A stretch of DNA of 13,460 nt from Desulfocapsa sp. (GTDB lineage Bacteria > Desulfobacterota > Desulfobulbia > Desulfobulbales > Desulfocapsaceae). The DNA lies in the NCBI GenBank assembly GCA_029934915.1, contig JAOZLI010000038.1, positions 1 to 13,460 on the forward strand. Direction: 5' to 3'. Every line of letters starts with the position of its first letter. The first letter of the stretch is position 1. Under the pieces are notes generated by a model, which was given only the letters and a program-made list of their open reading frames with translations, was not told where the DNA came from and did no database searches. Below, in pieces: positions 11,510-13,460 of the stretch. The position numbers were made by a program, and so were the translations under genes.

Positions 11510-12211
11510 TTACTCAGAATCAGCGGAAGCCGCATCTCCCTCTGCTGAGGCATCAGCCTCTGTATCTGTTGCATCTGCCGATGCCGCTTCTGCTGCCTCT
11601 GCTGCTTCTGCGGAATCTGCTGCGGCCGTTGCTGCTGCTGCCGCTGCTGCTGCTGCTGCTGCTGACACAACCTCAACGCAAAGGATATCCCCATCGGAAT
11701 CCATTTTTACATTCTCAGGCAGTTTAATGTCTGCAAACAAAATCGTTTCGTCAATATCCAGATCGGAGACATCAACGCTAATAACATCTGGAATCTCAAG
11801 CGGTAAGCCTTCAAGTACTACAACTGCATTGTGGACAACAATCTCGCCACCACGATCTACACCCTTTGCTTTTCCGGTAAATTCAACCTTTACAGAGAAA
11901 GACCTGGAAGTCTCAAGGTTAATTTCCAGAAAATCGGCATGGATCAATCTATCATCAACGGGATCTGTTTGAATCTCTCGCATCATAACGTGGCGAGTAT
12001 CATCTCCATTAATGGAAAGATTTACCACTGCATTTTTGCGGCTGATTTGATACAACGTTTTCAAAAACGGCTTGGTCTCAAGCTGCAGCGATAGTGAATC
12101 TTTACTATTTCCGTACAATACGGCTGGCGTATTTCCGCTTACACGCAGACGACGCATGGAACCTTTGCCAAAAACTTCTCTTGTTGAAGCAGACATGTCT
12201 ACTTGTAGCAT
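11510..12211 (-). CDS. rplY: 50S ribosomal protein L25, general stress protein Ctc type
   Basis: L25 binds 5S rRNA in the large ribosomal subunit. The 233-residue protein is the long two-domain form (TL5/Ctc). The N-terminal 5S rRNA-binding domain (about 6-95) includes GKGSMRRLRVSGNTPAVLYG, and the C-terminal beta domain (about 100-182) includes the VEFTGKAKGVDRGG and LEGLPLEIPDVISVDVSDL segments. Beyond it lies a tail of about 50 residues made almost only of Ala, Asp, Glu and Ser, beginning with 11 alanines encoded mostly by GCA. Low-complexity acidic or alanine tails are known in this family, but length varies. AAGGAG lies 6 nt before the ATG. A leader hairpin precedes it and a strong terminator follows. 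prs is 90 nt upstream on the same strand. Confidence 0.97.
   Translation of the reverse strand: MLQVDMSASTREVFGKGSMRRLRVSGNTPAVLYGNSKDSLSLQLETKPFLKTLYQISRKNAVVNLSINGDDTRHVMMREIQTDPVDDRLIHADFLEINLETSRSFSVKVEFTGKAKGVDRGGEIVVHNAVVVLEGLPLEIPDVISVDVSDLDIDETILFADIKLPENVKMDSDGDILCVEVVSAAAAAAAAAAATAAADSAEAAEAAEAASADATDTEADASAEGDAASADSE
11630..11662 (-). repeat. GCA trinucleotide tract coding poly-alanine in rplY
   Basis: Eleven consecutive alanine codons (ten GCA and one GCG); on the plus strand 11643-11663 is seven perfect GCT units. Slippage would add or remove alanines without shifting the frame. The surrounding tail also uses GCA and GCG heavily. Confidence 0.85.
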
Positions 12212-12301: not shown

Positions 12302-13240
12302 TTACACAAAAAGTGAACTGATGGAACCTTCGGTATGAATACAATCTATGGCAGCTCCGAGCAAATTAGAGACTGAGAGCACCTTAATTTTATCACATGT
12401 CTTTGCATCGCCACGAAGAGGAATGGAATTGGTAACAACCAGCGAGCTTATCTCTGATTTATTCAGACGCTCAACAGCAGGCCCTGAAAGCACAGGATGC
12501 GAACAACATGCATGCACTTCATTGGCACCATGTTTCATAAGTGTTCCTGCACCATTACAAAGCGTCCCTGCAGTATCGACCATATCATCAAGCAAAATTG
12601 CAGTCTTCCCCTTCACGTCACCAATAACATGCATGGCCTCACACTCGTTAGGCCTGTCACGACGTTTATCAATAATAGCAAGTCCCGCATCCAATCGTTT
12701 GGCAAAGGCACGTGTTCGTTCAACACCACCCGCATCGGGAGAGACCATAACGACATTTTTAAATTTGTCTTTGATATAGTCAAGAATTACTGGAGCAGCG
12801 TAAAGATGATCCACAGGAATATTAAAGAATCCCTGAATCTGGCCAGCGTGAAGATCCATGCTTAAAACACGGCGAACTCCAACGGCCATAAACATTTCGG
12901 CTACGACTTTAGCTGAAATGGGTACTCGGGGTGCAACTTTTCTATCCTGGCGCGCATACCCATAATAAGGGACCACAGCGGTAATTCTTCTGGCGGATGC
13001 TCTTCGAAGAGCGTCAACCATGATCACCAGTTCCATAAGGTGATCATTAACCGGAGTAGAAGTGGGCTGCACAACAAAAACATCCGCACCACGAACATTT
13101 TCTTTTATTTCAACAAAGATCTCGCCATCACTGAATTTACGAACATCGGCTTCTGAAAGTGGCACCTTAAGATAGTCACAAATTTCCTGCGCCAGCACCG
13201 GATTGGCATTTCCTGAGAAAACTTTAATGATGTTTGGCAT
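12302..13240 (-). CDS. prs: Ribose-phosphate pyrophosphokinase (PRPP synthetase)
   Basis: Prs makes 5-phosphoribosyl-1-pyrophosphate from ribose 5-phosphate and ATP, feeding nucleotide, histidine and tryptophan synthesis. The 312-residue class I enzyme shows SDGE at 37-40, [11 protein letters not shown] at 91-101, the metal/ATP segment [11 protein letters not shown] with H131, the flexible-loop KRRD at 192-195, and the PRPP-binding DDMVDTAGT at 218-226. All main catalytic motifs are intact. The ATG has only a weak purine-rich ribosome-binding region. It lies downstream of tRNA-Gln on the same strand, 166 nt away, and 90 nt upstream of rplY; prs-rplY-pth is a widespread order. Confidence 0.98.
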
Positions 13241-13406
13241 GTTCTTTTTCTTTGTTGTTGTGGTGTTAAAAAACTTTTAAATATCTTTTCTACAGCACTA
13301 AAATTGACTGTAAATGTGTTCAAGTTCGTTCGTTTTTATTCTGGCGCAATGGTAGTGTCATGCGACTGAACAAAAACGAATGAAATTGGATGCATTTCCA
13401 GTCAAT
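13241..13406. other. tRNA-Gln to prs intergenic region
   Basis: This 166-nt gap holds no gene. It is mostly occupied by the 106-bp palindrome listed separately (13302-13407). The remaining 60 nt before prs are AT-rich, with a small TTAAAA/TTTTAA inverted repeat at about 13266-13280. No convincing -35/-10 pair for prs was found. Confidence 0.6.
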
Positions 13407-13407
13407 T
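13302..13407. repeat. 106-bp imperfect palindrome abutting tRNA-Gln
   Basis: Two 47-nt arms (13302-13348 and 13361-13407) are symmetric around 13354.5 with no bulge. As plus-strand RNA 38 positions form Watson-Crick pairs, 4 form G-U pairs and 5 mismatch. The strongest blocks are the outer 15 bp (14 matches, AATTGACTG... with ...CAGTCAATT), the 13-bp block 13329-13341 with 13368-13380 (12 matches), and CGCA with TGCG at the apex. The right end coincides with the base complementary to the terminal A of the tRNA CCA. It has no coding capacity. It could be a MITE-like or REP-like element, or a structured RNA. Confidence 0.8.
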
Positions 13408-13460
13408 GGCTGGGGCGGGAGGGATCGAACCTCCGAATGTCGGGATCAAAACCCGATGCC
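13407..13460 (-). tRNA. tRNA-Gln (UUG anticodon), 3' portion
   Basis: The gene is cut by the right window edge; the acceptor 5' strand and most of the D-arm are missing. Visible on the minus strand are the anticodon stem TCGGG/CCCGA with loop TTTTGAT, giving anticodon TTG (13447-13449), a 5-nt variable region, the T-arm GGAGG/CCTCC with loop TTCGATC, the acceptor 3' strand CGCCCCA, discriminator G and an encoded CCA (13407-13409). The acceptor end CCCCAGCCA is typical of bacterial tRNA-Gln. It reads toward prs. Confidence 0.95.

Follow-up and report, generated by a model that had tools for sequence, protein, structure and literature searches.

The 106-bp palindrome between a tRNA-Gln gene and prs in Desulfocapsa sp. 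is most probably (we put the likelihood at roughly 0.8) an old, solitary copy belonging to a palindromic MITE family found in Desulfocapsa and its order. Family members are short and non-coding, with a hairpin of about 104 nt, and occur as many dispersed copies. We found no prior description of the family in the open-licence literature. The work thus adds a large palindromic mobile-element family in Desulfocapsa and its relatives, and points to a MITE hairpin that appears to be structurally selected where it stands at fixed positions next to essential RNA genes; such sites make the role of bacterial palindromic repeats, an old question, directly testable.

The palindrome and its setting

The window analyzed here is the whole 13,460-nt stretch of contig JAOZLI010000038.1, which belongs to a fragmented assembly (606 contigs, 83% complete). 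The features that matter for the argument are the following:

12302..13240, minus strand: prs, the next gene (ORF list; name as in the original prediction)
13241..13301, no strand: 61-bp spacer from the hairpin to prs (sequence, ORF list)
13302..13407, plus strand (the better-folding strand and the family-model orientation): palindromic hairpin element (inverted repeat, fold, family model)
13302..13348, no strand: left palindrome arm (inverted-repeat search)
13319..13389, plus strand: stretch matched by the sequence-only model R3 (36.4 bits, E 2e-10)
13348..13348, plus strand: bulged A under the apical stem, shared by the family (hand-counted position)
13361..13407, no strand: right palindrome arm, its end abutting the CCA of tRNA-Gln (inverted-repeat search, sequence)
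13408..13460, minus strand: 3' part of the tRNA-Gln gene, CCA encoded, cut by the contig end (sequence, Rfam)

The single-centre palindrome of the original prediction was recovered by an inverted-repeat search: two 47-nt arms, 81% complementary and separated by 12 nt, align without an insertion or deletion around the centre 13354.5, and no longer inverted repeat is listed in the window. The claim that this order exceeds what the surroundings predict also held, with 38 of the 47 symmetric positions forming Watson-Crick pairs, the maximum across all centres of the window, versus at most 28 in 200 first-order Markov copies of the window. Folding gave -51.7 kcal/mol (z -6.51) for the plus strand and -42.1 kcal/mol (z -7.34) for the minus strand, and on neither strand was any of 200 shuffles as good. 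The element lies, as predicted, between the CCA of tRNA-Gln on one side and, 61 bp away on the other, the ORF at 12302-13240, which we take to be prs, as in the original prediction. The tRNA-Gln gene, on the minus strand, scores 30 bits with the Rfam tRNA model for a gathering score of 29; ARAGORN listed no tRNA in the window, probably because the contig end falls inside this gene.

A classic terminator tail had been said to be missing, and a search for intrinsic terminators (a GC-rich hairpin plus a T run) returned no site. Rfam gave no family at its gathering score on the hairpin of the window, the best being a microRNA-precursor family (31.3 bits versus 113), nor on the hairpins of ten family loci. 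Adjoining prs, the ORF at 11510-12211 (minus strand) has a long low-complexity C-terminal tail of Ala, Ser, Asp and Glu built from imperfect repeats.

Dispersed copies and the complete unit

Nucleotide search alone returned one copy, and the corresponding single-copy reading was ruled out by covariance-model matches. A model built from five same-site copies (R1) gave matches in at least 22 of 56 relatives under strict filters, with up to the best 70 candidates scored per genome. Of 63 copies collected, seven were dropped, namely L179 (125 nt long), the duplicates L227-L229 and L233, and two that are the G013 and G014 copies from the tRNA-Gln/prs site; the other 56 were aligned with the five same-site copies (alignment A2). 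With model R2, the host genome yielded at least 62 matches on both strands, at no fewer than 41 hand-counted places (best 150 of 657 candidates scored), and the complete 3,097,763-bp genome G038, from the same order, at least 134 matches at no fewer than 132 places (best 150 of 841 candidates). In a sample of the phylum, the family was present in at least 11 of 395 genomes (strict filters, best 10 candidates per genome). Multiple dispersed copies, named beforehand as support for a mobile element, are thus found in the host, in its relatives and in G038. A sequence-only model (R3), trained on 56 copies to the exclusion of the host copy and four same-site relatives, finds the host copy on the plus strand with 36.4 bits and an E-value of 2e-10, versus 15.4 bits on the other strand.

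The host genome also contains two longer, near-perfect palindromes with an inner hairpin of family style (L179:808-1052 on contig C429 and L398:1233-1472 on contig C54), folding at -124.8 and -114.6 kcal/mol, respectively. Ten R2 matches of about 120 nt in this genome look like the same long subfamily, judging from the two that were looked at.

In several genomes, young copies extend some 46 nt further to the left and start with GTAAC or GTAAG. The complete unit measures about 154 bp and comprises a left end reading GTAA(C/G), about 46 nt, and the hairpin of about 104 nt, which has the inverted terminal repeat as its right end. Copies were considered testable for their ends when the right end was followed by AC and a (G/C)(T/C)AA(A/C/G) start lay 15-75 nt upstream; 49 of the 92 copies examined qualified, one of them (L201) being a contig-start artefact. 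Direct repeats of 8 bp, identical at 7 or more of the 8 positions, sit exactly at the boundary in 19 of these 49 copies, versus no copy at thirteen of the 14 shifted boundaries and two copies at +1. The boundary rule is conservative, as it misses L226 and L223, whose repeats are visible. The family thus displays the terminal inverted repeats and the target duplication of MITEs. The host copy has neither the left GTAA end nor an 8-bp repeat (13294-13301 compared with 13408-13415; flanks GCACTAAA and TGGCTGGG), and both have presumably decayed. Short forms of about 60-65 bp were seen in G018 (L268:4840-4899 and L267 from 3169), with both GTAA ends and no hairpin, consistent with loss of the hairpin or with its never having been present.

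GTAA(G/C) ends combined with an 8-bp duplication are IS66-like, and characterize the family, not the host copy. The IS66 insertion sequences of the same order share GTAAGCG or GTAACCG terminal repeats and 8-bp duplications, a script scan having found such ends with 8/8 repeats at 7 of 30 loci, but they carry a transposase gene, span 2.2-2.5 kb at the seven loci whose repeats are exact, and lack the hairpin at all 30 loci searched. Searches for an IS66 transposase gave one match in G038 and matches in several same-genus genomes, and none in the host genome, G018 and G037, all many-copy genomes. We describe the family as a MITE with IS66-like ends. Since the transposase is missing from these three genomes and the hairpin from the 30 IS66 loci, movement of the unit in trans by an IS66-type transposase is something we infer, and which we consider slightly better than an even bet.

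Among known systems, the NEMIS/Correia elements of Neisseria (about 107 and 155 bp) are likewise short palindromic repeats with shorter and longer forms and a target duplication (PMC2229807). ERIC, 127 bp long and found in enterobacteria, is also an intergenic repeat, and published work describes an orientation-dependent effect of ERIC on RNA (PMC2229807). Both have TA at their termini according to its table, whereas units of the family start with GTAA and show 8-bp duplications; NEMIS further differ in host group, and ERIC in host group and size, these distinctions being drawn from published descriptions (PMC2229807). GTAG REPs also lie at gene ends, where their terminus provides a stop codon (TAG, versus TAA from the GTAA of the family; PMC3733652), but they are 20-40 bp long, tagged and associated with a Y1 transposase, in contrast to the 104 nt, the absence of a visible tag and the 8-bp duplications of the family.

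Constraint on the fold and the site in same-genus relatives

In A2, 93.9% of cells are paired and 41 of 46 pairs have changed on both sides (mean of 500 shuffles 28.8, none reaching 41); as a control, a one-column shift of the partner brought pairing down to 36.7 and 41.3%. The conserved features are tandem U-G/G-U pairs, a 2x2 internal loop and, beneath an AUAG/CUAU apex, a bulged A; by reading, the tandem wobble is kept in the host copy and not in G013 or G014. Broken pairs fell below every one of 500 random sets in all 18 same-place comparisons, ten of which share five sequences and are hence non-independent. For example, 4 pairs are broken between the host copy and L012 for a random mean of 13.3, and 0 (mean 20.3) and 1 (mean 20.2) between copies beside a gene that we assume to be aspS from its N-terminal letters. 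These alignments show that the shape of the hairpin is kept while its letters change, apparently under structural selection.

Outside the six consensus wobble pairs, we counted 138 G-U, 30 A-C and 124 other non-standard cells, and wobble pairs occur mainly on one strand; fold energy, a criterion biased towards G-U, set the initial orientation of the copies, and R3, trained on them in that orientation, agrees. At the host site, the better-folding strand is antiparallel to both tRNA-Gln and prs, so that the fold present in an operon transcript would be the weaker one.

A hairpin occupies the tRNA-Gln/prs site in 6 of the 20 same-genus genomes, namely the host, G013, G014, G005, G003 and G016, the last with a divergent copy of unclear orientation (R2 43.9 bits; R3 E-value 7e-7). 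Thirteen genomes have other spacers without a family hairpin, ten of them shorter than 82 nt and the other three 98, 125 and 274 nt long; most were checked with R2 and some by eye, the latter being the sole check for G007, and no verdict was possible for G017. When five same-site copies were aligned, 21 of 51 pairs proved to have changed on both sides with 84.3% of cells paired, a result reached by none of 500 shuffles. The pattern is that of a syntenic copy with compensatory changes, which the original prediction had named as support for a structured RNA.

The site copies of the host, G013 and G014 are each 106 nt long, and the host hairpin is identical to the other two at 83/104 and 85/105 positions, respectively, compared with agreement at 49/150 and 56/144 fourfold sites of prs. 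In gapped alignments of the spacer beside the hairpin (67 and 69 columns), 42 of 54 and 39 of 53 ungapped columns agree, which indicates that the spacer, though variable in length, is not free of constraint either. Given nearly saturated fourfold sites and a spacer that also agrees, the contrast in conservation shown by the hairpin is smaller when set against non-coding sequence. The site is old, and the fold has been retained there. On a prs tree that includes the five carriers with prs (G005 absent), the carriers need 3 changes, and 34 of 500 label shuffles are as low, so that a single origin, loss or repeated insertion at the site would each fit. In G013, G014 and G005, tRNA-Gln is flanked by hairpins on both sides, in inverted orientation, and a second, inverted hairpin would be expected upstream of tRNA-Gln in the host too, beyond the contig end at 13460. 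Other hairpins, unmatched by R2, lie in the tRNA-Gln/prs gap of several genomes (L023, L116 and L137, upstream of prs), and the site may therefore be prone to such insertions.

Gene-end placement, proposed history and competing accounts

The position of copies relative to genes was surveyed with a simple ORF caller in three sets: the first copies, the further host-genome copies and those of G038. The right end overlaps an ORF or lies within 20 nt of one in 36/62, 18/20 and 18/29 copies, respectively, and it is the 3' end of the adjoining ORF that faces it in 29, 17 and 16 copies (62 of the 111 with an ORF on the right). The corresponding figures for the left end are 1/55, 3/20 and 5/29, an asymmetry partly due to the left boundary of the complete unit lying about 46 nt further out. 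By reading, the GTAA end provides the stop codon in a number of copies. The host copy follows the gene-end pattern, its right end touching the 3' end of tRNA-Gln; further copies are found beside tmRNA and SRP RNA (at the same place in two genomes each), beside a tRNA whose anticodon was read as UCG (read as Arg), and before the ATG of the putative aspS in three genomes. When the flanking ORFs share a direction, they are mostly antiparallel to the better-folding strand (30 versus 10, 10 versus 1 and 12 versus 4 in the three sets); given this excess and the same orientation at the host site, selection on the operon transcript alone is no explanation.

The history that we propose would begin with the insertion of a GTAA-ended unit of about 154 bp, accompanied by an 8-bp duplication, with an IS66-type enzyme acting in trans. 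Such units often have their right end at the 3' end of a gene, the terminal GTAA being able to give a stop codon. At tRNA-Gln, the left end and the target repeat would have decayed while the hairpin stayed; in the weakest step of the scheme, it would have been retained because the folded nucleic acid acts locally. The likeliest such action would be that of a long RNA duplex, either cleaved or shielding the ends of transcripts in the interval from tRNA-Gln to prs, although we hold this role to be doubtful. Transcripts of NEMIS form long stem-loops for which cutting by RNase III has been proposed (PMC2229807), and RNase III-type processing at tRNA-Gln would, by analogy, be our leading if weakly held guess. 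More speculatively still, the family may be a mobile element whose RNA hairpin is strand-specific and under selection; inserted where genes and stable RNAs have their 3' ends, it would have been co-opted at tRNA-Gln, SRP RNA, tmRNA and aspS, either as an antisense signal or for processing; if so, one transposon family would have rewired RNA ends across a bacterial order.

The order of events could also be the reverse, with a functional, perhaps antisense, structured RNA hairpin existing first beside tRNA, tmRNA, SRP RNA and aspS genes and one of its branches later captured by a GTAA-ended unit. We regard this as unlikely, though compatible with the best explanation for the host copy. Same-place copies at tRNA-Gln (on both sides in G013, G014 and G005), tmRNA, SRP RNA, the UCG-read tRNA and the putative aspS speak for it, as does the strong covariation in A2, but 62 of the 111 copies that have an ORF to their right adjoin its 3' end, few genomes of the phylum have the family (at least 11 of 395), the orientation relative to the neighbouring gene varies, and no Rfam family reached its cut-off in the window or at the ten loci.

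Far less probable is a repeat of REP type, mobilized via single-stranded DNA by a Y1 (RAYT) transposase. The fold does favour one strand, Y1 transposase matches occur in 16 of 18 genomes tested, and REPs, too, are located at the ends of genes, where they supply stop codons (PMC3733652). The 8-bp target duplications, a length of about 104 nt instead of 20-40, GTAA ends with no GTAG or CGTC tag among the copies listed (by reading), and the presence of the hairpin at just one of the 29 Y1 loci covered (out of 30) all argue against it. So does the lack in G038 of the replication-strand bias expected for single-stranded DNA transposition: across 128 of its 132 places, the four of unusual length being omitted, P was 1.0 when GC skew was used to guess the replichore borders and 0.38 when the origin was placed at base 1.

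Lastly, a chance palindrome or an unconstrained decayed relic, which might be suggested by the patchy occurrence within the genus and by the lack of a left end and a target repeat, is scarcely credible in view of the same-site compensatory changes (21 of 51 pairs), the contrast between hairpin and prs fourfold sites, the few broken pairs in same-place comparisons, the 38 Watson-Crick pairs versus at most 28 in Markov copies, and the R3 match with an E-value of 2e-10.
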